A stretch of 64,000 nucleotides of DNA, from NCBI RefSeq assembly GCF_004379255.2, contig NC_056044.1, positions 5,310,001 to 5,374,000 on the forward strand, read 5' to 3'. Position numbers and translations under genes: made by a program. Of this stretch, positions 32,671 to 64,000 are shown piece by piece. The notes beneath the pieces were generated by a model. The model had not been told where the DNA came from. It ran no database searches and saw only the letters and a list, made by a program, of their open reading frames with translations. Origin of the DNA: Salvia splendens (lineage: Eukaryota; Streptophyta; Magnoliopsida; Lamiales; Lamiaceae). The first letter of the stretch is position 1. Each line of letters begins with the position of its first letter.

Positions 32671-33830
32671 AACAAGTCTGCCACGTGGCAGACTAAGATT
32701 GAATCCGCTCCTAAATCTAAGGGTTCTCAATGGTGATAAGTTGTCATTTTAAATATAGTTGACATTTTAATACAACCCTATATAAATATTTTTAAAATTC
32801 GTACATAACTTTTCTTCTCCTCTGAAATATTTTTCTCTATCGGCTCTTGAGACTAGTGTCTTTGACACTCCAACTACTCCGAATTTTTGTATTCTTTTAC
32901 AGAAGGCAACTAAGTTTTTTACGATTAACTATATGTCTGGACTTCTCGTTTTTTTTTCATAAGGACAACACTGGGTTTTTTAATAAAATACTAGGGGGGC
33001 AATTTAATCAAATGAAACATATTATAACAAAATTACATAGGAGTATATATTTATGTATAAATGAAAAGTGAGGTGGGGCAATTGCCCTTGTGAATATATA
33101 CTAGATCCGTCATTGCATTAGTTCCAATTTTATCATAAATGTCCCTATTTTTATAAGATGGAGGGAGTATCCACTTTACAATCATATATTTCAAATTTAA
33201 CACAATAGACAAGCGGTGGAATATAAAAATCCATATACTCCGAAGTAGATTATTAGTTTTATGTGATTGGGCAAAATCTATAACATGTGCCAAATATCTA
33301 AATATTAATGAAATATTGACAAGTTAATACTACGTAGTGAAAAAGAATGCTTAACAACTCGAAATTGATTAGTTAAATGTCACAGCTCTGGCGACAGGTA
33401 TCTACAAATTAATGGCGCCTTCCACCAATAAATTAAAGCGTGTAATTATTATTAGCCGAAGACGTTAAAATATCTTCTAAATGATAGTGATTTGATATAT
33501 CATGGTTTCATAACAGCATCTCCAATAGCAATAGGTCAGCCATAGCTTAGCCACAAACTCCTCCTGACACATCATCAGTACTAAAAACTCCTCATGCCAC
33601 ATCATCAGGACAAGCAACTGGACATGCAATAGGTTAGCCATAGGCTAGCCACAATAAACAAAATTATAAAAAAAAATAATTAACACTCACACAAAATACG
33701 GAATTAAATTTACGACACAAATACGAGAAAATTCAATAATAATATTTAATTTAAAAAAAGTACATTAATTAAAAAAAATTACATAATTAATAAAAATGTA
33801 GATTAAAAAAAATTACATAATTAAAAAAAA

Positions 33831-35162
33831 CTAACGTCGTGCAGTCCTCCGCGCTCACAACTCTTCAATTAAATCCTTTTTGCGTCGAATATGAGCATCC
33901 ATTTGGCGCATGTCGGCATGTGCTTGGAGGTGGCCGGCTTCATCGTGAGGTACCCCGCTTCGTACGTTGGGGGCGGCCACGCCGTGGCTTGGACCGGCTT
34001 CATTATCGTCGTTGGCCCAACTAGTCAGTTGTACACCTTCATCTTCGACAATCATGTTGTGCATGATAATACAGGCGTACATTATATCAGCAATGCAGTC
34101 GACATGCCACAAACGCGTTGGACCCCTAATTGCTGCTCATCGAGACTGGAGCACACCAAATGCGCGTTCCACGTCCTTGCGCGCCGACTCCTGCCGTTCC
34201 GCAAAGTAGGCCATCCTCTCATCTGATGCGCATCTGATCGTCTTCACAAAGACGGGCCACCTAGGGTATATCCCATCCGCCAAGTAGTAGCCCATATCAT
34301 GTCGGTTGCCGTTGGCGACAAAATAGATGGCTGGACCGACGCCTTGGCACTGCTCGTTGAAAAGGGGCGACGAGTTGAGGACGTTGAGGTCGTTGTTCGA
34401 CCCGGCTACCCCAAAATACGCATGCCAAATCTACAGCCGGTAATCAGCTACTGCCTCGAGGATCGTCGTGGGATTCTTTCCCTTGTAGCCGGTCGTGTAG
34501 AACCCCTTCCAGGCAGCGGGACAGTTCTCCCACTCTCAATGCATACAATCTATGCTGCCTAACATACCCGAGAACCCATGCTTCTCCCCGTGCATCTACA
34601 TCATCTCCTGGCAGTCTTCGGGGGTAGGGCTTCGAAGGTACTGATCATGGAATATTTCAACCACGCCCTGACAGAAATACTTCATACATTCAAGGGCATT
34701 CGTCTCACCGATGTGGAGGTACTCGTCCCACATATCTGCCGCGCTTCCGTAGGCCAACTGCCTGATTGCCGCAGTGCACTTTTGAATAGGTGTGTGGCCG
34801 GGTCTGCCAGCCGTATCGTACCTGAAGCGGAAACACAGATATCGATGCTCCAAAGCGTCAACAATACGCATAAACAGGACCCTGCTCATCCTAAAACGCC
34901 GCCTGAAAAGGTTGGCGTTAAACCGCGACTCTTGTGCGAAGTAGTCTTCATATAGCCGCTGATGTGCAGCTACGTGATCTCGTTCAATCACTGCTCGGAG
35001 GTGGACAACGGGTCGAGGTCGAGGTACCGCCGGCTGCAAGGCCCTTTGTATCAGCCGGTTGATCTCACTGGACATATAGGCCTCCAACTCTTCGTTCATT
35101 TGCCGTTCGTACTCCTCAGCATCCCCACCACTGCCACCACTACTACCACTCGCGTTACTCAT
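33831..35162 (-). pseudogene. PIF/Harbinger (ALP1-like) DDE transposase with five nonsense codons
   Basis: The ancestral protein cuts and inserts PIF/Harbinger elements. One frame of 443 codons runs from ATG 35162 (MSNASGSSGGSGGDAEEYER) to TAG 33831-33833. The N-terminal helix-turn-helix part includes FRRRFRMSRVLFMRIVDALE. The catalytic core has SIDCMH (first Asp), GSNNDLNVL (second Asp) and KDVERAFGVLQSR (Glu), so the DDE triad is present. In-frame stops: TAG 34596-34598, TGA 34536-34538, TAG 34431-34433, TGA 34137-34139, TGA 33855-33857. At least three stand where the family has Trp, consistent with TGG-to-TGA/TAG changes. No frameshift is seen. A TATA box (TATATATAG, about 35251-35259) lies upstream. 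Confidence 0.88.
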
Positions 35163-35248
35163 TTCGCGTTGTTGATCTTGTACAGAAATTAAGATAGAGA
35201 GAAAACTCGTTAAAACAAGTTGTGCGAATGAAAATGACGTGCAAATCA

Positions 35249-35262
35249 CGTATATATAGTGT
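35249..35262 (-). promoter_or_regulatory. TATA box of the Harbinger transposase gene
   Basis: On the minus strand CACTATATATACGTG lies about 90 bases upstream of ATG 35162. The same string, in the same position relative to the ATG, occurs in the element at 45960-48009. Confidence 0.6.
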
Positions 35263-35488
35263 TTCGAAAATTAAATAAATAAATAAAAAATGGGTTGGCC
35301 GATCGCTCGCCGATCGGGAGCCTGCAATGGCGGCCAGCCGACCGGCGAGCGGATCGGCCAGCGCCCGAAAGTCGGCATGCGCTCGCCGATTTTCTCGCCG
35401 AATTGCCGCTCGCCGCCTGGTTCGGGGAGCGAACCGGCCAGCGCCTGGAATCGGCTAGCCGGTCCGCTCGCCGCCATTGTGGATGCTC

Positions 35489-36419
35489 TAACAAAGTGGA
35501 ATAGAGTTGTACTTGTATATTCGAATGTAAGTTTTAATGCGAGAGTGGTACTTTTACAAATTAAGTAATTGTTGGAGAAGAAGAATTTTCTTTTACAAAT
35601 CAAATAATTATTCATTTGTTGGAGAAGGAGAATTTTCTTTTAAGCATGGGCGGAGCTAGATGGATATGGAAGTCTTGTTCTAAGAAATCTCATTCCACAA
35701 CGAGTGAACTTCAAAATAAGACCCAACACCAAAGAAACTCTATAGATACTTAGCATGACTAGAATTGAGGACAATAGATGTGTATTTTGCAAAGAGCAAA
35801 CAGAAACCACCGAATATAGTATATTCTTTTGTTGCATGGATGTCCAATAGTCTATGGTATTATTGATGTGAGAAATGGAGCGTCTCCATTTGTCTTCCTA
35901 AAGATCCAAAAGACTTACTTTGTCAATTGGTTGGATAACCAGTTTATGAAGTTTGGTAAAAAAAAATTGTGAATCGATCTCCATGTTATTTGTGATCGCA
36001 TGGTCAGTCTAGAAGATTGAGGACAACTTTGCCAAAGCGACAACTTCTGAACTATTTTCTCTGTCCCAAATTAATTTAATTTAATTATATTCTATTTTGG
36101 GTTATCTCAAATTACTTTTTCTTTTATAATAGAAAAACAAAAGTGACTCCATTAAAAGGTTTGGAGGGAGTATGATTGATAATTAATTCCAAATTCATAT
36201 ACAGTGTATCTCTGGAATTGTTTTGTCATAAAAACGTGGCCCAAAGGAAACTTAAAGTTTGACTCAGGCCCATTAATATTTTGCTTATGGACTTATTTAT
36301 CTTCTGAGCCCAGGATGCACTTTATTTTCCTACATATTAGGATTATTAGTAGTACTAATTTTTTTTTGTTTATTAGAGTTTAATTGGAATTTAGAATCTG
36401 TAGGGTTTAACTGCATGCT
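35489..36419. other. Intergenic spacer
   Basis: No supported gene. A near-repeat of TTGGAGAAG(A/G)AGAATTTTCTTTTA occurs at 35571-35600 and 35619-35642. Confidence 0.5.
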
Positions 36420-36428
36420 TTGTTATTA

Positions 36429-37247
36429 GATGGAACATCTTTTTAGGTTCATAAACTTTGGCAAAGTATTATTTTAGGTCCGTGAACTTTGAAAATATCA
36501 TTTTAGGTCCGTCAACTACAAGTTAATATCATTTGGGGTATTTTGAACTTTGTCCGGACGAAAATACCCTTAAGGCCTTCAAAGGGTAATTTGGACAATT
36601 CTTTCGCCACTCATCTTGCGTCAAAAACCTAGAGTCCAACAATTTTTTTACTACTATTTGATTCAATTACCGTCCAAATTGAATTTAAATATAATTAAAA
36701 TTTGCCTTAAAAAATATGTGTTAATTTTTCAATTATTAGATGACCAATTATTTAGGAATAGTGAATTGGGACTTGATACTTTATTTTGTTTTTTCAATCT
36801 AAACTGCATTTTAAGAACTTACTATAGGTGATTTGTGAATTATATTTAGTTTATTTATTTTAGAATTAGATAGCTATATTAATTTGGATTGTTATTTGGA
36901 GTATTATTTATATGGATTTGGGAATTATATTTAGTTTATTTATTTTGGAATTAGATAGCTATATTAATTTGGATTGTCATTTGGAGTATTATTTATATGA
37001 ATTTCAGAATGGAGATCAATTACCATCCAAATTGAATTTAAATATAAAAATTTGCCGTCAAGATGAGTGGAGAAAGAATTGTCCAAGTTGCCATTTGAAG
37101 GCCTTAAGGAAATTTTCGTCTAAAAAAAGTTCAAAATACGTCAAATGATATTAACTTGTAGTTGATGGACCTAAAATGATATTTTCAAAGTTCACGGACC
37201 TAAAATGATACTTTAGCAAAGTTCGTTGACCTAAAAAGATGTTCCCC
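36429..37247. mobile_element. Long-TIR MULE-like foldback element
   Basis: Flanked by the nine-base duplication TTGTTATTA (36420-36428 and 37248-37256), the size typical of Mutator-like elements. The ends GATGGAACATCTTTTTAGG and, inverted, GGGGAACATCTTTTTAGG start long inverted arms of about 200 bases that include ACCTAAAATGATA strings. No transposase is present. The centre holds a tandem duplication of about 84 bases (36836-37005). Confidence 0.85.
36836..37005 (+). repeat. 84-bp tandem duplication inside the foldback element
   Basis: Two copies of a unit with GAATTATATTTAGTTTATTT and AGATAGCTATATTAATTTGG, nearly identical, in the loop of the foldback element. Confidence 0.75.
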
Positions 37248-37823
37248 TTGTTATTAATACACGAGTGACGAAAACCTTTCTTTCAAATTCAATTCCATAA
37301 AATTTCATTCCCAACACAATTTCAATTTTATGGTATCAAATGGGTTCTCCAAAAATATTGGCGTAAGAGATTCTGGTTATAAAGTAGCATAGGATTTCTA
37401 GAAAATTTCAAGAATCAAAGCTATAAATTTCTCTCAACGAATCTGTCTTCTGCGCAAGAGATTTTAAAGTCTTTGATTTTTAGTTTTCGCATTTGATTAG
37501 TTCTTCCATATAACCTTTTCCCAACTACATGTCAAGATTTAATTAAAACAGAAGTTCTAGCATAAACATAAGAGAACGTAACTTGAATTTCATGTGATAT
37601 TTTTGTCTTTAAAATATATAAATAAAATTTGTTATAAGGGCAAGTCGAAGCCAGCTCAAACGAATTTTAGTAAACAATAATCTTAGATTGAATTGTTCTT
37701 TATTTCATTCAAAAGGCATTTTATTGATCTTCTAAAGTATTATTACTGAATTTATTAAGGTTATTTTTATATCTATATCATAAACTAAAGTCAGGAATTT
37801 AACGTTGGGGCTCACGGTTAATA

Positions 37824-38073
37824 CTCCCTCCATCACACAATAGGAGTCACATTTGATATGAGCACGAGTTTTAGAAAATGTAAAAATAGTAGGTTGAAAA
37901 AGTTAGTGGAATATATAGCCTATTTTTTATATTGGTTTTATAATAAAATGTGAGTGAATTGAGTTAGTGGAATGTGAGACGTACTTACCATTTATAGTAA
38001 AAGTGAAATGTGACTCTTATTGTGGGACGAACTAAAATGACAAAATATGACTTCTATTATAGGACGGAGAGAG
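37824..38073. mobile_element. Stowaway-like MITE
   Basis: Starts CTCCCTCCATCACACAATAG, ends TAGGACGGAGAGAG, with TA on both sides (37822-37823 and 38074-38075). Internal sequence again shows inverted pairing (AATAGGAGTCACATTT against AAATGTGACTCTTATT). Confidence 0.7.
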
Positions 38074-38704
38074 TAATTATGCAAGATTTTAGAATACATA
38101 CAAGACTTCTATTAAGCTACTTTCGTTATCAATTATTTATTAAAATTCATATTGTCCGCTACCGACACGGTAATGTTCTATTGATGAGCTATACTGAATA
38201 TAAATACACCTGTATAATTGTTTATTACACCGTTCATAAAAAGTTTGAAATGGTGCATAAGTTTGACATGGTGCAGGAATAATTTATGTATGTTTTCAAT
38301 AATTTATGTATGTTTTCTTAATTTTTAATTGTGTGAATGCTAGACTTTTTCATCACATACTAATAAAATGTAGTTTAATTATCATGCGAGCCACTAAATA
38401 TCAACTTTCCCCACGATGTATTCAAATTTTGTGCTGTTTAAATGTCATTTTCAATTTGTTTTAACATCAAGATCATAACAATCAATCAGAGAATAATATG
38501 TCCATTGACATCAACAAAAACAATTTATGCATAGCTATTTTAATACTATTTCTAGCGTTGAATAAGATGAGGTATATTAGTTGTTTCTAATTGAATGACT
38601 AGTTCTTACCGGCAATCCATAGGCATCAACCAACTCTTAATAAAATAATTGCAATTTGATTGCAAAAAGTAGACTCATTCAATAAAATTGTAGCGAGGAA
38701 TGGC

Positions 38705-38712
38705 TATATAAT
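38705..38712 (+). promoter_or_regulatory. TATA box of extensin gene 1
   Basis: GGCTATATAATGC lies about 87 bases before the ATG at 38792. An upstream in-frame ATG at 38729 would lie only 17-20 bases past the TATA box, at or before the expected transcription start, so 38792 is the better start. Confidence 0.65.
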
Positions 38713-38791
38713 GCTATAGGTTGAACTAATGAAAATCAGAAAACAAAAAAGAAAGATCCAACTCCACAACTACAGTCTTTCATTAGCAACC

Positions 38792-40810
38792 ATGAAGAGC
38801 TTCATGGAACCCCGACTGTGGGTTCTGGTGGCTCTCGTCACCACCTTAGCTGCCACGGCAAATGCCGACTCCACGTGGAAACCCGACTTGCCACTGCCAC
38901 ATCTTCCGTATCTTTACAGCTCACCGCCGCCGCCACCATACAAATATGAGTCGCCACCACCTCCACCATACAAGTACGAGTCTCCACCACCTCCACCATA
39001 CAAGTACGAGTCTCCAACACCGCCACCATACAAATATGAATCTCCACCGCCACCACCTTATAAGTATGAATCACCTCCACCACCACCATACAAATATAAG
39101 TCACCACCACCTCCTCCCTATGTGTACAAGTCTCCTCCGCCACCGCCATACTTGTACGAATCCCCTCCACCACCTCCTTACAAGTATGAGTCTCCACCAC
39201 CACCACCATACAAGTACAAGTCACCTCCTCCACCGCCATACAAATATGAATCTCCACCCCCACCACCTTATAAGTATGAATCACCTCCACCACCACCCTA
39301 CAAATACAAATCTCCACCGCCGCCGCCTTACAACTATGAATCGCCTCCACCTCCGCCGTACAAATATGAGTCTCCACCACCACCACCCTACAAGTATAAG
39401 TCACCTCCACCACCACCATACAAATATGAATCTCCACCACCACCACCGTACAAGTATGAGTCACCACCTCCTCCTCCTTATGTGTACAAATCTCCTCCAC
39501 CACCGCCTTACAAGTATGAATCACCTCCGCCACCACCCTACAAATACAAGTCTCCACCACCACCTCCTTACAAGTACGAGTCACCTCCACCACCGCCATA
39601 CAAATACGAATCTCCACCACCACCACCACCTTACAAGTACGAGTCACCTCCACCCCCACCATACAAATATGAATCTCCACCACCACCTCCATATGTTTAC
39701 AAGTCTCCACCACCACCGGCCTACAAGTACGAGTCTCCTCCACCACCACCATACAAATACGAATCTCCACCACCACCTCCATATGTTTACAAGTCTCCAT
39801 CACCACCGCCCTACAAGTATGAATCGCCTCCACCACCACCCTACAAGTACGAGTCTCCACCACCACCACCCTACAAGTACGAGTCGCCTCCACCACCACC
39901 ATACAAATACGAATCTCCACCACCACCTCCATATGTTTACAAGTCTCCACCACCACCACCCTCCAAGTATGAATCACCTCCTCCTCCACCCTATAAGTAC
40001 AAGTCTCCACCACCACCACCATACAAGTACGAGTCTCCTCCACTACCACCATACAAATACGAATCTCCACCACCACCTCCATATGTTTACAAGTCTCCAC
40101 CACCACCCCCTTACAACTATGAATCACCTCCACCACCGCCATACAAATATGAGTCACCACCGCCTCCTCCTTATGTGTACATGTCTCCCCCACCACCACC
40201 TTACAAATATGAGTCACCACCGCCTCCTCCTTATGTGTACAAGTCTCCCCCACCACCGCCTTACAAATATGAATCACCGCCACCACCACCCTACAAATAC
40301 GAGTCACCACCACCACCACCGTACCTCTACAAGTCTCCACCACCACCACCTTACAAGTATGAGTCACCACCTCCTCCTCCTCCATATCTATACAAATCCC
40401 CACCACCACCGCCTTACAAATATGAATCACCGCCACCGCCACCCTACAAATACGAGTCACCACCACCACCACCGTACGTCTACAAGTCTCCACCACCACC
40501 ACCTTACAAGTATGAGTCACCACCTCCTCCTCCATATCTATACAAATCCCCACCACCACCGCCTTACAAATACGAATCACCTCCACCACCACCTTACAAG
40601 TATGAGTCACCTCCACCACCACCCTACAAATACAAGTCACCTCCACCTCCTCCTTATGTTTACAAATCTCCACCACCACCACCATACAGATATGAGTCTC
40701 CACCACCTCTTCCTTACAAATATAAATCTTCACCAACACCACCTCAGAAGGATGACTGTCCACCACCATCATACCAGTACAAATCTCCACCACCTCCACC
40801 AATATACTAA
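38792..40810 (+). CDS. Extensin-type hydroxyproline-rich cell-wall glycoprotein
   Basis: Extensins are secreted wall proteins; their Ser-Hyp runs are O-glycosylated and Tyr pairs crosslink them into a network. The 672-residue product starts MKSFMEPRLWVLVALVTTLA with a cleavable signal peptide ending about AANA/DS (residue 25). After a short DSTWKPDLPLPHLPYLYSS segment come about 60 units of the type SPPPPPYKYE, with variants YVYK, YLYK, YKYK. YxY is the known intramolecular isodityrosine motif. The run S-P5 differs from the classical S-P4. Glu and Lys are both frequent. The end is DDCPPPSYQYKSPPPPPIY. Because the 30-base unit is a multiple of three, long frames also open in other frames and on the other strand; they are by-products. 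Sister gene at 51188-53443. Confidence 0.92.
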   Translation: MKSFMEPRLWVLVALVTTLAATANADSTWKPDLPLPHLPYLYSSPPPPPYKYESPPPPPYKYESPPPPPYKYESPTPPPYKYESPPPPPYKYESPPPPPYKYKSPPPPPYVYKSPPPPPYLYESPPPPPYKYESPPPPPYKYKSPPPPPYKYESPPPPPYKYESPPPPPYKYKSPPPPPYNYESPPPPPYKYESPPPPPYKYKSPPPPPYKYESPPPPPYKYESPPPPPYVYKSPPPPPYKYESPPPPPYKYKSPPPPPYKYESPPPPPYKYESPPPPPPYKYESPPPPPYKYESPPPPPYVYKSPPPPAYKYESPPPPPYKYESPPPPPYVYKSPSPPPYKYESPPPPPYKYESPPPPPYKYESPPPPPYKYESPPPPPYVYKSPPPPPSKYESPPPPPYKYKSPPPPPYKYESPPLPPYKYESPPPPPYVYKSPPPPPYNYESPPPPPYKYESPPPPPYVYMSPPPPPYKYESPPPPPYVYKSPPPPPYKYESPPPPPYKYESPPPPPYLYKSPPPPPYKYESPPPPPPYLYKSPPPPPYKYESPPPPPYKYESPPPPPYVYKSPPPPPYKYESPPPPPYLYKSPPPPPYKYESPPPPPYKYESPPPPPYKYKSPPPPPYVYKSPPPPPYRYESPPPLPYKYKSSPTPPQKDDCPPPSYQYKSPPPPPIY

Positions 40811-41455
40811 TCACCCCACTCCCCATCTCCCCATCCATCATGATCCAGTTTGTTATTATATTCCTTCAGCTCCTTCAGATTATTTATTTACCAAAACCAC
40901 CATCATTATCACATTCAAACAAACCGTGATTCTCTTTCTGGTTGCTTCATTAATATTGCGTAAATAAAGGTTTCACTTCTCTTCTAGTATCCATAATGCT
41001 CAGCGTCCTATCAAGGAGTTGCGGACAAAAAAGAGTGGATGATCGATGCTTGCAATCTTTTTCTTTGATCGTAATTGTAACTTATGTTTGTTCATGTACT
41101 TTATATATTTAATGGATTTTTTTTATATCAACGTCTTCCTGAACATATTGGATTTTGACAAACTAAGACTCATGATCTACAAATCAATTAGTCGGATCCT
41201 TATTAAGGGTTTCCAAACTGATTTTATTTATAATTATCATTATACTCTAATCACATTTTTATCGCATATCTGGAAGAGCTTTTTTCAAGTAACAAGAGTC
41301 AAATTTGATTAAAGTAGTTTGTAACTAATCATTGACGACGTAATTCTGTAATTTTTCACCAACACATGATTGTTTTACATCTCTGTGAGGTGAACAAGTC
41401 TCCAAGTCTATCTCATCTATCATTGGTGGGCAGAGCTGTTTCTTTTTGTTTTGTT

Positions 41456-43499
41456 GATTTTCATGATTTTATTAATTTTGCTATAGTTACCTGAAATTAG
41501 TCTTGTGGATGTATGAGATGGTGCATAAAATCAGTTGAGATGAATTTCCAAAAGTCAACTACGAACTTATAAAACAATTTGTTGGAATCGTGTGTCCGGT
41601 CAAAGGTTTTTACCAAGAATAAATTTAACGAGACATTTAATTTTGTAAAATTAAATAATATAGCGTCGATCTATGTTCGGAGTAGATGACCGTGGTATAT
41701 TCCTTTTCTCAAATCCGATTCCCGGTGAGTGAGAAATAATGAATTAAAGTTTGGTAAAATTGCGAGCTAATTAAATGAGCTATGAAAGAAGTCATGTGAT
41801 TAAGTAAAAGAGTTAATTATCCCACATCAGAAATAATATAGCGTCGATTTTTTTATTGTAATATCGTTTCAGTATTCATTATGTATTCCTTCTTTTAGGT
41901 TGTATCCGGTTCATCTTTTGTAATTCATAAACCAACACAATTTAAAAGGATTAATCTTAATATCTACAAATTATGCAAAGAACAAAGATGATGCCCTTCC
42001 CTGGTTAATGCTTTTCAGTTTTGATTGAGAAATCTTACGTGTCACATTCTTTTTATAGAAAAATGAAAAAAAAAGTTAACAATGAATAAATTACGATTTA
42101 CGATATTTAGTGAATTTATTGATTTTATTTTGAAATTTGTCAATTTTATCTCAATCTTTAACAATACTTACACCCGTGCTATACACGGCGCATATTATTT
42201 ATATCAAATTATGAAATATTTTTTGAATATTAAACAATATCCTTATATGGGTCTAAAATTATAAATGTATTTAATAATAAACATTTACAATATTACTACA
42301 TTTGATCAAAATAGTTACTTTTATTAAAATAAAGTTATGATGTATAAAATTATGAATTTAGTATAATTTATGTTCAAAAATTGCGAAGAGTAGTTTTATT
42401 ATATAATGATAGTATTGATAAACGAGCATATTATATAGAACAAAAATATTATAGTAAGTTTATATATTATTTCTATGTACATATACATGTTGCAATGAAG
42501 ATTACCAGATTCAAATTCAATGTACATACATTTGACTCATATTAAGATTAGAATTTAGTTTATTTAAACAAATAACCTCATGCATGCATTCAACATTATA
42601 ATTAATATAGTTAATGCTTTCTAAAATGACATTCAGTTTCAATAAACGATAACGATCGCAATTTATACTTTCTATCCTAAACCCTTAGTATTGTCATTTT
42701 TTAAATTCACAAAAAGATGTTGATTTGTGTAGGGCTGGGGCAATTTAAAAAAATGAAACTACGTCATTAATATTCTAATTTCAAAATTTATGGACGGACC
42801 ACAATATGACCAAACTCCGTGATTGATATGACTATCATCCCAATAAATAATAGAATATAAAATATTTAAATAATTATCATTTTAAAATATATATTATTTA
42901 AAATTATACAATATTAAAATAAATATTAAAAAATAAAAGTACAGTATAATTAACATTACCTTTTCTTATGCATATACTTTTTCATCTTGCACGACACATT
43001 ATATTTTCTTTCAAAATGCGTAGAATATCAAATAATTATGCACAAAGAATGAAATAAAAAATAATTTATTGAAATTAACTCCATCTTGCACGACACATTA
43101 TGCACACTTCTCTCTTCCTCCTTCATCTTCCTCAACTCTCCTTCCTTAAGACCTTAACAAAGCTTTTGTAGAACATGAATAAACAAATATTACTTACTTC
43201 GTATACTTTGTTTGTCGTTGATATTTACATGTCACCCCGGTCGCAGTCAATTTCCTCTCCGGAACGTCGCAAAATAATATTTTTGGCTCCTTGCTCGTGT
43301 TTTCATCGTTGCCGAACAACAGAAAGAACCGGCTAAAGGAAAATGAGAAGATTACAGTAGATGAGAGAGATATCCATAGGAGAAGGATGAAAGTTTATTC
43401 AATGTAGTTTCTTTTTTTTCGTTGTCTCAACATTACATGAAAGGAAATACTTATAGGAAGATTTCAAGTGCTCCACTACTCCACTACTCTACTAAACCA
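41456..43499. other. AT-rich spacer between extensin 1 and the hAT element
   Basis: No supported gene. A 20-base string CCATCTTGCACGACACATTA is repeated (near 42983 and 43080). Confidence 0.5.
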
Positions 43500-43519
43500 A
43501 CTACATATAAGCATGCACA

Positions 43520-43925
43520 AACCGAATCGGCCCGGCGGTTCGGAACCGCCGGTTCATGAACCGGAACCGGAACCGGCGGCGGCGGTGATTCAAGCGGGCC
43601 GGTTCAGGTTCTGGAATATGATGAACCGTAACCGGCGGATCGCCGATTTGAACCGGCGGTTCAACGGTCCCAACGGGCAGATTCCGGCTAGAGCGTAGGG
43701 TTGCAGGCGAGGTGTGCAGAAAAACCGGCGGTTTCTGACGTAAACCGCCGGTTTCCGACGGCTCCGGTGCTTTTTCAGGTGGAAAAGCATAGGTGATAGT
43801 GTATAGGCCTGAAAACCGGTCAGAAACCATCGGTTTTCAGCCAGAAACTGCCGGTTTCCGTCAGGAAACCGTGGACTGAACCGCCGGTTTTGCTCTGAAC
43901 CGCCGGTTCAACCGGTAAACCGGCC
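43520..43925. repeat. hAT subterminal repeats (CCGGCGGTT)
   Basis: More than a dozen copies of AACCGGCGGTT-like strings and complements lie in about 400 bases, in both orientations. Clusters of short subterminal motifs bind transposase in hAT elements such as Ac (established for that family); binding here is inferred. Similar strings (CATGAACCGGAATCGG) occur near the right end at 49325-49355. Confidence 0.8.
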
Positions 43926-46291
43926 GAATTTGAAATTTGTATTATTTTTTTTATTTCTTCCAATTTTACTCCTATAAATACCCCACTTCCCCCATCATTT
44001 TTGCTCACCCCATTCTTGTGTTTACAAGGATTTCCTTCTCAATCTTCATTTCTCTGTTCTCTCCTCATTCTCTCTAATTGCTCAAGTTGTTTACTAGTTA
44101 CTACTTACTACTATATTTGTTATTGAGTTCGTAAACTTACCATTTATTCAATACTCCATATTCCATCCATACTATTTTCATTTATCACTATGTCTTCTTC
44201 TCGTGGTGGACCGGGACGTGGTGATCGGGGCAAAGGAATTGCCCAATATCAAAGTAGTCGTCCCTCAAAATCAGGGCGACCTAGTCGTCGAGAGTTATGG
44301 AAGAGGTTTCCCGAGTGGCCGCTGAACGCATGCAAGTAAGTTCTAAAAAATTATTTTTACAATTCATAATTTCATAATATTGAGTTTTTAAAATTTTTTT
44401 GTGTTCCTACTTATAACTTCAACTTATATAATATTTATAGATAGAAGAAGATCATAGGATGATCATGCTACTCGCTGAAATGCATCAAGGTAGGGGGAGG
44501 GGCGGTGGTAGTTCCCAACAACAAGATGACGAGTACGACGTGTTTATATCGTCGGACTCGGACAACAATGATGATAGATCTCATTCTCGTATTCCGTCTA
44601 GCACCGACGGAAATGAGGAGATGCCTCCTCCCCCTCCACCCACTAACACTACAAAAGCTTTGAAATCTGATATTTTTGTTAAACACTACAAGAAGGTCCC
44701 GGTGGTAATTTCAAGTCCTCATGATCCGCATTCTCAAGAAGAGAAATCGGCGTTTCATGCATATTGTAACTATTGTGATAAAGTCTACAAATTTGCGGGT
44801 GGTGGGGGATATGACACCCTCCGTCGTCATTTGGTGACAAAGCATCTGGTAGAATGTGGCACTACCTCTACCCAAACCCAACTAAACTTCCAACCCGGTT
44901 GCTCAGGTTCGTCAGGTACGCCTCTTTTTAAATATGTTAAAACTTTTTTGCTGACGTTATGACTAGATGGGCTGCAATGAAGCATTTTCCTTTTAATGTG
45001 TATGATGATAAAAAATTTGAGGTTACTATGCAAAGTGGTTTAAACGTAGCTATCAAAAGAGTAGGTCGAATGACCGTTCAACGATCTACCGTTAGACAAT
45101 GTTTAGTGAAAATGTTGAATTATCACGTTATTTACTTAACTTGGGCTTGGGCCACAAAGTGGACATTTGCTCAGATGTATGGACTGATTGTTTTAACCGG
45201 CATTCATACATGGGCATTACGGTTCACTTTTTGGACAATAGTTGGACTTTGAACAAGCGTTTAATTGGTTTTAGAGAATTTGAGACACCACACACTGCAC
45301 CCGAAATTGCTTCTTTAATTATTCAAGTTTTGAGTGAGTTTCAATTATGCAATAAGATATTTTCTGTTGGTTTTGATAATGCAACTGCGAACATTGCAAG
45401 TATTAGTGGTTTGATTGCGGCCTGTGCTCCGGTTATTGGAGGTAAGTATTTTCATCAAAGATGCATATGTCATATTTTAAATTTATGTGTACAAGATGCG
45501 CTTGAATTATGGCAAAAGCATGTTAGTCCTATCAGAACTGCAGTTAGATTAATCCATCAAAGCCAACTATTGGCAAAGTTTGGAAAAATATTGTCATCAA
45601 AAGAACGTAAGATATACGAATTTTACTAAGGATGTGTCTCATAGATGGAATTCGACATATGATTGTTTGAATTCTACTTTGACGCATAAAGATTCTTTAT
45701 GTGATTTTTTTAGAACCTATCCCGTTCATGATTTATATATTTCGCATAGTTGTTGGGAACATAGCGTGGCTTTATTTAAATTGTTCAAATATTTCAAAAA
45801 TGCAACTGTTGAATTATCGGGTGTTTATTATTGCACTACTGTTCGTGTTTTAGAGCATTGCATGTATATATCACTTGGTTTTAAAACTGCAATGAAAAAT
45901 GCTTACTTTTCACCTGAATTGATGTGTGTTTTATATTATATGATTGAGAAATGGCTTAAGAGTATCTCCAATAAGAATAGCCCAGTCATAGCTCAGCCAC
46001 AAACTCCTCCTATCACATCATCAGCTCTAAAACTCCTTCTGCCACATCACCAGGACAAGCAACTGGACAAACAATAGCTCAGTCATAGCCCAGCCACAAT
46101 AAACAAAATTATTAAAAATAAATAATTAACAATCACACAAAATACGAAATTAAATTTACGACACATATACGGAAAAATTCAATAATAATATTAAAATTTT
46201 AAAAAGTACATTAATTAAAAAAGTACAATAAAAAAATTACATTAATTTAAAAAAAACTCCTACTCCACGCACGAGCCCCCCCGCCTCCGCC

Positions 46292-47695
46292 TCACGCCTC
46301 GCCGTCGTCGCCATCGTCGTTGTCGTCGCCATCGTCGCCGCTATCCAGGACCCCCAAATCTGCATCTTCTGAGCCCGCGTCTGAGACCCCCACCTGTGCC
46401 GCGGCGGCAGTTAAATCGGCTCGCATACTCATGAGCAGTGCGTGAAAAAAACTCTTCTTCTCTGGGTCAGTGGCATTCTTCCAGTCAGATATGACCTTGT
46501 ACATCCGAGCCCGCGTTTGTTGACGCGCCAAGAAGACGAGGTCGGTTGTTGGGCTGCCAACAGTGGGGGATGGCGACTGGACCTCCTCGGACCTCTGGCG
46601 AGCCCGTTGCCCGCCTTTGACCAATCGGACGAGTGCAGCGAGTAAACGCGGGAGGGGACGGGGTCTCCTGAGCATCTTCGGGGAGGTCGTGGGAACCGCT
46701 GCTGCCGCCGGCGTAATCACTGATATAGTTCAGGCGCTGCTTCTTCGGCCAGCCAGCATCGACTCCTACCCGAAACTTCTCGGAGTCCATTAGCACCAGG
46801 TAGCAGTTCCAGTAGGTGAACTCCTTGTAAAGCCCGGGCACGGGAAACTCTTTCTCCGCCATCCTCCTGCAGTCCTTGTCAGTTTGGCCACTAGACTGCA
46901 ATCGGAGGGCGTTGGTGTACAAGCCCGAAAATCGGGAGACCCCTTGCCGGATTCGGTCCCATCCCTTCCGGCACTCCTCCCCGCTGCGTGGCCTCCCCTC
47001 CGGGAAAAAATGTCTTGTAGGCTGTTGCTATTTTAGCCCACAGGTTGACGATCCTCTGATAGTTCGAGGTGAGGGGATCATCGCAAACACTCACCCACGC
47101 CTTGGACAGCGCGACGTTCTCCGCGTCCGTCCACTTCCTCTGTGCCGGGCTGTCGTCATCAACCGGCTGCGACGACTAGCCGACCACCCTCTTGCCCTTC
47201 CTCTTTGGCGCGGCCCGACCCCGCCCCTACTCCCCCCGTTTGAACGGGGGTGTCCGCATCCCCGAGATCTATCCCCAACTCCTCTAAGGAGAAAGTATCA
47301 CACCCAGTGAACTGCGTCTCCGCTGGGGTCGATATGTGCGAAGAAGAAGTAGCAAAATCAAGACTGGGGCGATAGACGTTGTCCCCCCCCAGCGTCCCCT
47401 GCATCCCTGGGTACCCTGGCATCATCTGCATCCCGAGTGTCCACCCCGGCATTATCGGCATAGGGGGTTGCATCCCCGGTCCCCCCTGCCTGCCTGGAAC
47501 CGTCGGCCCGCCCTGCATCACCGGACCCCCCGGCATCCCCTACCATCCCGACATACCACCCCCGTATGCCACCCCGGGCATCATCTGCTTCCAAGTGTAG
47601 TAGTACCCTGGCATCGGACCCCATCCACCTCTCGCGGGTACCGTCGGAGTTTGAGACCCGCTCGTCACTGGAGTAGACTCGTTGTTGTGCTTCAT
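46292..47695 (-). pseudogene. Harbinger ORF1-type (Myb/SANT-like) protein, broken
   Basis: Reading from ATG 47695 (MKHNNESTPVTSGSQTPTVP) the N-terminal third is Gly/Met/Pro-rich (PMPIMPGWTLGMQMMPGYPG). The SANT/trihelix-like core reads KWTDAENVALSKAWVSVCDD and NYQRIVNLWAKIATAYKTFF, followed by LQSSGQTDKDCRRMAEKEFP and KEFTYWNCYLVLMDSEKFRV. The end is very acidic (SGDDGDDNDDGDDGEA). A stop after MSGW, a frameshift near 47200 and another near 46995 break it, as does one near 46660. The leader GTACAAGAGCAACAACGCGAA before the ATG is almost the same as that before the transposase ATG at 35162. Bound role: DNA-binding partner of a Harbinger transposase (family knowledge). Confidence 0.78.
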
Positions 47696-47781
47696 TTCGC
47701 GTTGTTGCTCTTGTACAGAAATTAAGATAGAGAGAGTACTCATTAAAACAAGTGGTGCAAATGAAAATGAAGTTCAAATCG

Positions 47782-47800
47782 CGTATATATAGTGTTTCAA
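47782..47800 (-). promoter_or_regulatory. TATA box of the Harbinger ORF1 gene
   Basis: CACTATATATACGCG on the minus strand lies about 90 bases before ATG 47695, at the same place as in the sister element at 35250. Confidence 0.6.
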
Positions 47801-49375
47801 AAATTAAATAAAAAAAATCATGCTCGCCGATCTGGAGCCTGCAATGGCGGCAGGAGATCGGCGAGCGCATCGCCGAGCGCTCGGGAATCAGCGTGCACTC
47901 GCCATTTTTCTCGTCGATTTGGAGCTCGCCGACTGCAATGGTTCGGGGAGCGGATCGGCGAGCGCCAAGAATCGGCTAGCCGGTGCGCTCGCCGCTATTG
48001 AAGATGCTCTAAGTATTTCAATGAGATTCCAATGGTGTTTTTGATTGCAAAGGTCTTGGATCCAAAATGGAAATTAGCCGGTACCTCCAAGATTTTAGAT
48101 TTTTATTATAACAATTTGAGTTCTATTAATCTTGGTCCACTTAAAGCATTGCAATCGGATACCAGTGACTAATTCGGAGTAGACCTCTCAGAAACATTTC
48201 AAATAAACCTCCCGAACCGGTCAATTATCCAACAAACCTTCGAGTTTAACTTGCGTGCTCTCTACACCGAATACGAAACCAAGTATAACAGTACCCACCA
48301 AGTCAGAAGACCTCCCCCTCCTCAACAACATAACTTTGGCTTCTCATTTCAAGTCGATTATGATGACCCCGACGTGCAATCCTAATTAGCCGACCTATAC
48401 AGCTACAACACCGGCGAAGGTCCTCAGATATGGTAAGTGAGTTAGATTTATATTTCGATTCACTCTTTTCTTTTGGTGATGAAGGTCCTACTCCTCTCGC
48501 CCAAATCGACGTCCTCGATTGGTGGGGAACACACGAGAAATATTTTCCCATACTTGCGTCAATGGCCAAGAAGATTTTTTTTGTTCTGGCTTCCACTGTC
48601 GCCGTCGAGTCCGCTTTTAGTGTTGGCTCGCGTGTGTTGGATGAATCAAGAAGTAAGCTCTCCGCGAAAAATATGGAAGCCATGATGTTACTTGATGATT
48701 GGGTCAAAGCTGACGTCAGAGAACAAGAAAATGATTGGGATGATCGTCAGGAGGGATCACAAGAAAAATTCACCGGGGATGAATCGTAGGCCAACCGTCA
48801 ACCGCCGGCCAAGCCAAATAGGTAAGTAAGGTAAGAGAACTATGTGGGCTTTGATTCCCTAATGCAAATGAGCATTGGGGATACGTAGGCAACTCAACTT
48901 AAATTTTAAATTTAAGTTGAGCTCAAGTCCTTTTTCTTTTATTTCTTTTTTTCCCATTTGTTTCTACTTTAAAAATATGCAAATACAATTAAATAATTGT
49001 ATATGTATATACTCTAGTCGATGAAATAGATTTCTCTATAAGGCTAAATCCGGGAAACTTTTGACAATTCTACTATAATTGTTGATTGTTAGACTAAACT
49101 CAACATTTAAAGTTGAATTGCTAAATGTGTCTTCAATTTAGTTATGTAGAAAGATCTTTCGCCGACTAAGAGTATATATACTTATAAAATTATTGTTCAG
49201 AACTTCTAAGTCTTTTTTGTAATTAGCTTCGTTGTTGACTAGTAGTCTCGTTGTATTTAAATTTTTGTTTAAGACTTCAAGACCTCAAAGTTTTTGTGAT
49301 TTGTAATTGTTGTAACTTGTAAGTTCATGAACCGGAATCGGCAGTTTCCGGCCCGTGTGCAGGCCTAACTACATA

Positions 49376-61243: not shown

Positions 61244-62430
61244 TATTTTGATTTGTGTTGGAGTTATTAGTTTTACGTTTATAAGAGTTAGTAGTGATTA
61301 TTTCATTTTGGAACGCATTGATTTGTCAACTCTATTGGGATTTCTTTTGATTAAGGCGTATATCACAATCACATGGCTCTGACCAATACTTTTCTGGCAA
61401 TGTTAATCCAGGAAAAAAAATTAAGTGCCCGCCATGGAAGAAAAAGTATAATAAGGAAACGTGTATTAGTTTATAATCGGTTTGGCAGAAATTGAGTCAA
61501 ATATTGTGCAACTTGAATATGGTAAATCGAACTATTTAATAGGGTCTTCTCTTTGGTTGTAAGTCTATAATTCAAAAAGAAGGGTGTCAATTTGGGAGTG
61601 ATTGAAAATGATTTCATGTACTATAATTTTGTCATAAAATACTAATTAATGGTCAATCAAATTAAATAACACCAAAACTCAAACTCAATTATTCATATCT
61701 TTATATGATCTTTCTAATTCTATTTCTTTTGATTCATTGTTAACCTTGGTCTTAAAATTACTAACCTTTCAAATTGTGCAAATTTCCCATGACAATTCTC
61801 TTTGTCCATGGTTTAAATCGACATGTCATTTTTAATCCGATGTATAGGCCAGTTGAATCTAGACGTGACCTAAAATGGACAAGTAATCGCATTGACTCTC
61901 TCAAACTTTCGAAGAAAGAAAAAGGAAGAGAAGAGGGTGCAAATACATATTCTCCTCTATTTTCCATCAAAGAGAATTCATCATTCCTGGACTCAATCTG
62001 CCAAATCTGTTGTAGTGTTATGTAGCTATGTGATCTACGCATTGATTAAAAATAAATAGGGAAGGAATAGAATAATTAAAAATGAATAAGAAGGAAAAGA
62101 TTCTTCATCTAAAATCTCTGTTTCATTAAAATACTACACAACTCACGACACCCCAATAATATTTGAGAAATATATGAATTATATTATAAATAGCAAATTA
62201 TATTAAAATATTTGTTTTGACCAGAAACACAGTTAAGAGAATATCAATCAATCGAATAAACACGTTGGAACATGGTTAACGTGGAATCATGTGTATATGC
62301 GTAATATACGGGTGTATGTATATATCCATGAAATTTTGTGTAATAAAAAATGGATCGAGTTATAGATAAACCTGTTTTTATGTTATATTTTGAGTCATCC
62401 ACGACACACCTCTCTTTTTTGGGTTGTCGA
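61244..62430. other. Upstream region of the DUF604 gene
   Basis: Contains its presumed promoter on the minus strand. No further gene is supported. Confidence 0.45.
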
Positions 62431-63070
62431 TCGGATGAAGTGGAGGAGCTCGAGGAACTGAAGCCCAATTTGGGGCAATCGATATTTCGTCCTCAATAAT
62501 TATGTTGTGCAATATAATACACGCATACATGATGTCTATATAAGCACTTTCTTGAACAAAAACACATTGAATCTTTGATGATTGTGAAATAGTTTGTTGA
62601 ATGTCAAATGCATATTCTACGTCTATACACGCAGCCTATACAGGCAGCCTGACTTCTATGCAAATAGAGCTATTTTGGGCTTGTTTAGGCAAAAAAAAAC
62701 GACTTCACGAATGTCGACCACCTTGGATAGGTGTCACTGATGAGATAGTACCTCATATTATAGCGAATGTGAATTGTATCAATAGAGCTCTAACGTTTAA
62801 AATGTCATTGGAGATGTTAGAGTAGTTGAGGACATTTATATCATTGTTGGATGGGTTCACCAAAAATGTATGCAAATCTAGAGCCAGTGCGTAGACTGCT
62901 TCTAGTACAATCATTGGATGAGAGCCTTTATGACCGGCATATGTCCTTTCTATGTTATTGGAAAATTTTTCCAATGACAAAGCATGCAATGATGCAATCA
63001 ATGTTGTCAAGCATGTCGGGGAAATTGTGGTGTGCTTCGTGAAGATGGTGCAGTTATTGCCAGTCATGGG
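62430..63070 (-). pseudogene. PIF/Harbinger transposase relic
   Basis: The minus strand shows, in broken order-preserving pieces, AGHKGSHPMIVLEAVYALAL, VNPSNNDINVLNYSN (second Asp region) and, further on, DIMYACIILHNIIIEDE, the C-terminal signature of ALP1-like transposases. Many stops and indels. No element ends were found. It is not close to the 33831-35162 copy. Confidence 0.6.
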
Positions 63071-64000
63071 TTGTGGGCGCCCTCATGTATTCATGTAATC
63101 TACACATATTGCATCGCAAATTCCCCTACAAAGATCATTTTATCATTCTCAAACAATAGCACAATATATGGTCTCGCAATGTGAAAGTACTGGTTGAACA
63201 TATCAAAATTTATGTTGGCCGGTTTGCCAATTCATTTTTTTTAATAACAAAATTTTGAGATATTCATATTTACGCCCAGTATATATGCATCAGTGCACCA
63301 CACATGTCACTGAATAACCGCGGGGGGGGGAGGGCACGTAGCGTGATGTCCGCCCCTCTTCGTTTGCTAAAGAGACACAGCGTGTTCTGCAATGGTCCCG
63401 TCCTAGGTTACGTGATCGCGCGAATGTTCTTGGAATTAGCATTAGCATTGTCTAAATATCAAGTAATGTTAAGTTAGGTCTCTTTGCATCGCCTCAATTA
63501 GATTCCTTCATTGCATTGGAATAATTTAGAATGTATATTGTGCTTAATTGTATGATAATGATTATTTCAGCCCAACATAAGGATAGCATGGGCTGGTTTT
63601 GTTAGTTAATACTAGAACCCTATTGTTGAACCCAACTAGCGAAATAAGAAAACGAAACCATTTGTTTAATTAGAAATTTAATTAACATTAGGTAATCACC
63701 AAATAAGGCAGCAATGGACATATTCATGACTCTAATGGTTGGTGCCTAAAGAAGTGGTGGTGGCTGTTTAATTAGAAATTTAGAATGTATATTTGCTTAA
63801 TCACTAACTAATTGTTCGGTGACCAAATCAAAAGGAAAATTTAATACTAGTACTAACAATTTAAGTTAGAAGCTCAATTAATTTCTTTTTCAAAATCCAG
63901 ATGCGTGCTTTTCGTTTCTAATTAAACAATGAATTCGTGATATTAAAATTTTGATAATAATATCATGTAACTTTCAAAAAAAGTTTTATTTTTTCCATGA
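63071..64000. other. Intergenic end of the window
   Basis: No gene or clear repeat seen, apart from a G10 homopolymer near 63323. Confidence 0.5.

Follow-up and report, generated by a model that had tools for sequence, protein, structure and literature searches.

The closest described relatives of the elements reported here are the rice transposons Ping and Pong, for which a transposase and an ORF1 protein are both required; in yeast the two proteins act when supplied from separate vectors, and they may be sourced from Ping, from Pong, or from both (PMC2836001). Co-expression of the Ping proteins in yeast left their localisation unchanged (PMC2836001). In zebrafish, both proteins of a Harbinger element are needed for movement (PMC9710019), and a 9-base subterminal motif is bound by the Myb-like protein, which enters the nucleus with the transposase (PMC9710019, PMC9179366). 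Here we describe two elements in a stretch of 64,000 nucleotides from Salvia splendens (assembly GCF_004379255.2, contig NC_056044.1, positions 5,310,001 to 5,374,000 of the forward strand), hereafter called the window. One belongs to a family, T, that carries only a DDE transposase gene, the other to a family, O, that carries only a Myb/SANT-like ORF1 gene, and the two have their ends and promoter in common. We consider it likely that they make up a split PIF/Harbinger transposon of the Pong type, in which two single-gene families are built on one chassis and are mobilised in trans.

T and O resemble Ping, Pong and mPing in the Pfam family of the transposase, in the Myb-like ORF1 protein and in the TAA duplication, and the Ping and Pong proteins are themselves trans-acting and can come from different elements (PMC2836001). 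However, Ping and Pong each carry both genes, whereas a T or O element carries one. The first-pass annotation of the window had stated that known autonomous PIF/Harbingers hold both genes in one element, which is mostly so; the exceptions known to us lie on the transposase side. The MtPH-E family of Medicago truncatula comprises three elements, two with a transposase and none with orf1 (PMC2213677). In having a PIF/Harbinger transposase without orf1 in any member it is like T, but the available part of that report describes no orf1-bearing sister family on the same ends. No single-open-reading-frame (single-ORF) Harbinger is recorded from fish in the accessible text of a second study, and the Spy elements of invertebrates do have a single ORF (PMC9179366). 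Spy shares with T and O the rule of one gene per element; it differs in that the sole ORF is a transposase with its own helix-turn-helix, and the same text mentions no partner element. Non-autonomous Harbinger/Tourist miniature inverted-repeat transposable elements (MITEs) likewise have shared ends and are moved in trans (PMC2836001), but MITEs are gene-free, whereas T and O each have a long gene behind a promoter. In a literature search with Repbase and most subscription papers outside its scope, and with the papers that it reached available in part, we found no Harbinger whose transposase and ORF1 genes are divided between two families with the same ends, so that the arrangement may provisionally be regarded as new.

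In the window, 10.5 kb separate the T element (element 1) from the O element (element 2). The gene of each lies on the minus strand, and TAA stands directly outside both borders of each. Their parts are as follows.

33511..33513, no strand: TAA target-site duplication, left of element 1
33514..35488, minus strand: element 1, transposase-only PIF/Harbinger (family T)
33514..33776, no strand: shared left end with terminal repeat and 3' untranslated part, 87% identical to 45960-46222
33831..35162, minus strand: disrupted DDE transposase gene of the Pong type, in a single frame with five in-frame stops ahead of the final one
35160..35488, minus strand: shared right end with start codon, leader, TATA box, GC-rich subterminal repeats and terminal repeat
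about 35251-35258, minus strand: TATA box of element 1
35489..35491, no strand: TAA target-site duplication, right of element 1
45957..45959, no strand: TAA target-site duplication, left of element 2, within a hAT transposase frame
45960..48009, minus strand: element 2, ORF1-only PIF/Harbinger (family O)
45960..46222, no strand: shared left end of element 2, homologous to 33514-33776
46292..47695, minus strand: broken Myb/SANT-like ORF1 gene with frameshifts and stops
47693..48009, minus strand: shared right end with start codon, leader, TATA box, subterminal repeats and terminal repeat
about 47784-47791, minus strand: TATA box of element 2
48010..48012, no strand: TAA target-site duplication, right of element 2

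The first-pass annotation had noticed that the two elements have about 300 bases in common at one end and, at the other, the promoter, TATA box and leader up to the ATG. Alignment bears this out. The left ends (33511-33776 and 45957-46222) are 87.3% identical over 267 columns (E = 5e-91), and the right ends (35159-35491 and 47692-48012) are 81.4% identical over 338 columns (E = 1e-91). The right-end match begins at the start codon and runs through the leader and the TATA box out to the terminal repeat; its first ~120 bases, comprising start codon, leader and TATA box, are nearly identical, and its outer ~200 bases are more diverged. Inside the shared ends, no match between the two elements exceeds 29 bases, and the rest of the window holds no further match of such a kind to either of them, the remaining matches being at most 67 bases long. 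It was likewise right that one element holds only a transposase gene and the other only ORF1, and both copies in the window are broken: the minus strand of element 1 encodes a PIF/Harbinger transposase in a single frame with five in-frame stops before the final one, and that of element 2 encodes ORF1 in pieces, interrupted by frameshifts and stops. Element 2 sits in the transposase reading frame of a hAT transposon (window positions 44459-48789; dimerisation domain PF05699, 5.7e-20), a frame that is open once the element and one TAA are removed. On contig 443 of the same genome the two elements recur in the order seen here, with 99.6% and 96.9% identity and identical adjoining bases; this contig is probably the other haplotype or an unplaced duplicate.

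T and O are both large families, not one-off remnants. The genome searched comprises 806 Mb in 1162 contigs, and loci read from it are given L-numbers below. The element searches scored the best 40 of the candidates, and the counts that result are lower bounds. With element 1 as query, 35 of the 40 scored matches (of 7415 candidates) span at least 1,800 of its 1,975 bases, and the matches are 87 to 94% identical to it once the window copy and the nearly identical one on contig 443 are set aside. Element 2 gave 31 of 40 scored matches (of 6289 candidates) that span at least 1,800 of 2,050 bases unbroken, at 81 to 90% identity with the window copy of element 2 and its twin likewise excluded. The many copies of both single-gene types that the annotation had anticipated are thus present. 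Word searches, which include partial copies and indicate family size and not exact copy number, found a 24-mer from the transposase core at 1341 places in the genome, with up to 2 mismatches allowed, and a 24-mer from the ORF1 core at 1727 places; the reversed control of each gave 0. A degenerate form of the ORF1 core with at most 1 mismatch occurs at 726 places, a second ORF1 core word at 789, and the transposase start joined to the leader at 697.

In all, 42 loci picked as good matches to the window elements were read, 21 of T and 21 of O. The 42 include the twins of the window copies (L002 and L030), and 13 further fetched loci were left out as repeats of the 42 or of the window. All 21 T loci show the order left end, transposase, right end, without ORF1, although the right end is cut in three and the left end in several, and one locus (L028) has a left end that is O-like. 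All 21 O loci show left end, ORF1, right end, with some ends cut and without a transposase inside; in L035 a transposase fragment of 70% identity lies outside the O element. The arrangement of both genes in one autonomous element, a hallmark of the Pong type, was found in none of the loci examined.

A query in which ORF1 and transposase were joined gave the same picture: none of the 40 scored loci, of 5920 candidates, matched both parts. A two-gene locus would be expected to outrank all others in such a search. A test by position covered contig 1 and contig 2 up to 34.1 Mb; there, the locations of 39 listed ORF1 cores were set against those of 105 listed transposase places, made up of 100 exact cores and 5 start junctions. 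This test is free of the best-match selection by which the 42 loci were chosen. For three of the 39 cores, a transposase place lies less than 12 kb away (5.0, 8.0 and 11.2 kb), and a rough reckoning from the density of listed transposase places puts the number of such neighbours expected by chance at about one. The closest pair (contig 1, 40.67 Mb; L056) was considered as one two-gene element and rejected, as it resolves into two distinct elements that each have a left and a right end. In the other two pairs (contig 1, 18.15 and 25.71 Mb), O and T lie on opposite strands, as judged by position with the sequences between them unread. Hence, with two pairs unread, no element among those of the 39 mapped ORF1 cores has been shown to contain a transposase as well. 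The annotation's expectation of no or few two-gene copies agrees with these results from the 42 loci, the joined query and the mapped cores, and the outcome it had named as fatal to the idea, a predominance of intact two-gene copies, was not seen among the sampled loci. A tandem array on contig 1 (22214419-22238773; L057), with a unit of ~4,075 bases, was also considered as a two-gene unit and rejected, since each of the two units in L057 contains only a transposase-family copy and part of its right end.

The 3-base TWA target-site duplication that is a hallmark of PIF/Harbinger was found in both families: among copies with both ends matched, a script recorded identical flanking trinucleotides in 8 of 12 for T and 13 of 17 for O, and these are TAA or TTA in 8 T and 11 O copies. 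Copies that lack an end, 9 of the 21 for T and 4 of the 21 for O, were left out of the count, and inspection by eye shows that the script misread L010 and probably L011, both of them T copies. The terminal inverted repeats of O are AGAGCATCTCCAATA at both ends, and those of T are imperfect, AGCATCTCCAATAG against AGAGCATCCACAATGG. Between the majority sequences of T and O, the left ends are 91% identical and the right ends 87%, and the stretch of leader and promoter reaches 93% over 122 bases. The 9-mer CGCTCGCCG occurs in 6 copies in the T ends and 7 copies in the O ends, two counts that are not independent because the ends are related. When the mononucleotides of the T ends were shuffled 200 times, the commonest 9-mer had 1.9 copies on average and at most 5; a 7-base part of CGCTCGCCG is confined to the right ends. 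From their sequence, these repeats are candidate binding sites.

The families are also alike in age. Copies diverge from the majority sequence of their family by a median of 3.5% in T (n = 21) and 3.8% in O (n = 21), and the median pairwise divergence is 6.8% and 6.6%, in a comparison that is fair, not unbiased, both sets being best matches to a window copy. In trees of the left and of the right ends, T and O fall on opposite sides of one branch, with modest Shimodaira-Hasegawa-like approximate likelihood ratio (SH-aLRT) support of 90 and 94, and most inner branches are unsupported. Rows less than 75% filled were dropped from these trees, which retain 39 and 40 of the 42 loci together with both elements of L056; in the right-end tree, the row for L056 includes flanking DNA. 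Two diverged ORF1-only elements were also found. In L055, identity to the young O family is 92% across ORF1 and 85% across the outer right end, and in L056 (1278-3194) 242 of 335 right-end bases are matched at 86%, with 93% in the leader. Since L055 is older and diverged, the ORF1-only elements probably stem from more than one burst. We do not argue that ends are being homogenised from one family to the other, nor claim that the right ends of T and young O are closer to each other than those of young and old O, a comparison that depends on the root and for which two figures were faulty: the leader of L055 was cut at the wrong place, and a value of 62% for the outer end of L056 includes flanking DNA.

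The identity of the T protein can be read from better preserved copies. In L019, a T relative elsewhere in the genome, the transposase frame is open and encodes 443 amino acids that match PF04827 (6.3e-86) and PF13359 (1.4e-10) in Pfam, with no additional DNA-binding domain at a convincing score. At the level of the profile, the PF04827 match spans the region of the three catalytic acidic residues. The L019 protein matched 4270 of 7965 scored candidate proteins at E up to 1e-3, and among 120 listed matches are plant proteins named ALP1-like or HARBI1-like, as well as an Oryza protein; proteins of other Salvia species (S. hispanica, S. miltiorrhiza and S. divinorum) among the matches reach about 47 to 73% identity. 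The majority sequence of the T family also has an open transposase frame of 443 codons. For ORF1, relatives with longer frames match Myb_DNA-bind_4 (PF13837) at 3e-4 in L054 and the NAM-associated domain (PF14303) at 4e-4 in L041, in both cases below the curated cut-offs of Pfam. A word search for ORF1 homologues returned two proteins only.

Two other features of the window may be recorded here. A frame at 38729-40810 encodes an extensin-like repeat protein (SPPPPPYKYESPPPPPYVYK) of 693 amino acids. On the minus strand at about 61500-63100 lies a remnant of another PIF/Harbinger-like transposase, the core of which (62486-62536) is 78% identical to element 1 over 51 bases and which retains a decayed version of the same C-terminal motif.

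In the split transposon that we propose, T and O would have one chassis in common, made up of the terminal and subterminal repeats, the promoter, the TATA box, the leader to the ATG and the 3' untranslated end. Family T would supply only the DDE transposase and family O only the Myb/SANT-like ORF1 protein, so that the two proteins would be made from separate loci and meet in the cell. Recognition of the shared ends would presumably fall to the ORF1 protein and cleavage at TWA sites to the transposase, and the pair would move T and O elements alike, in trans. By analogy with the described systems, both proteins would be needed and each would act on both families. Physical linkage of the genes is not needed for the chemistry, as the rice proteins work from separate vectors and elements. 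We infer that T and O were mobilised jointly, and their similar ages and shared ends fit with this.

Several observations weigh against such a reading. Choosing loci by their match to single-gene elements is biased against two-gene copies, and the gap that the joined query allows between its parts for ranking as one locus is unstated; indeed, one locus with two transposase stretches within 1.3 kb came out as two rows. If the position test is taken as 0 of 39, the two-gene share of ORF1 copies could still be up to about 10 to 15% (95%), with detection assumed at 74% or 50%. The sub-threshold domain scores of ORF1 count here too. The ratio of nonsynonymous to synonymous changes relative to expectation is 0.68 for T and 0.94 for O, the latter over a 199-codon stretch, which is near neutral; such a pattern is what dead copies would give, and the codons suggest no clear signal of selection on either gene. 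By longest frames, no copy read has both a full-length open gene and complete ends; in L019 the gene is open and the right end is cut. Lastly, among 22 transposase elements of Medicago, 11 (text) or 14 (table) have orf1, and some of the losses are put down to internal deletions (PMC2213677).

The Medicago case bears on the alternative that survives best, which we nevertheless regard as unlikely. T and O may have arisen by deletion from a parent that carried both genes between the same ends; that parent would have moved them and would now be rare, unassembled or lost. Internal deletion does commonly leave transposase-only copies, to judge from the same Medicago elements, and by the position test a small share of two-gene copies could be present. 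On the other hand, no such copy turned up in the 42 loci or the best 40 of the joined query, or was shown among the 39 mapped cores, and both classes contain many copies of near-full length. The structure of the start region also speaks against simple deletion. In T as in O, the ATG stands at one and the same base after the common leader. If a two-gene parent has a single promoter, only one of its genes can lie at the leader, so that deletion could yield one family of this form, not both; to have both ATGs on one leader, deletion would need a parent with a copy of the leader for each gene. A swap of the coding part within a shared chassis would accordingly explain the split better than simple deletion, since it could account for both families. 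This is a structural argument, not a demonstration.

More doubtful still is the idea that T is autonomous by itself, or with an ORF1-like protein of the host or of another family, and that O is a passenger moved by T. Transposase-only families do exist, as MtPH-E and Spy illustrate (PMC2213677, PMC9179366). However, the 443-amino-acid T protein is convincing for PF04827 and PF13359 only and has no added DNA-binding domain, and its rice relatives require both proteins (PMC2836001). A passenger, moreover, does not need a long ORF1 behind the same promoter in many copies of near-full length. Least probable of all is mobilisation of both T and O by some other Pong-like family, more distantly related, with shared ends that reflect common origin only: further families of this kind are present, as transposase stretches about 69 to 70% identical to T in the flanks of L016, L026 and L035 indicate, but the ends and ages of T and O are alike, and the T majority sequence keeps its 443-codon frame open.

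We thus return to a split Pong-type element as the likely reading of these two families. A stronger form of it, towards which we lean only slightly, is that of an obligate bipartite transposon, in which T and O are both non-autonomous and spread only as a pair, each contributing one required protein. The similar ends and promoter would then be what holds the families together, and T and O might, on a narrow balance of our judgement, be seen as a transposon counterpart of the multipartite viruses. PIF/Harbinger transposons are known as two-gene elements, and the linkage of the genes in one element is usually attributed to the requirement for both proteins. If the genes of T and O do work from separate elements, with more than 1000 core-bearing places each, that linkage would be dispensable and a DNA transposon could be bipartite. 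The two families would then offer a natural test of how mutually dependent families keep matching ends and numbers.

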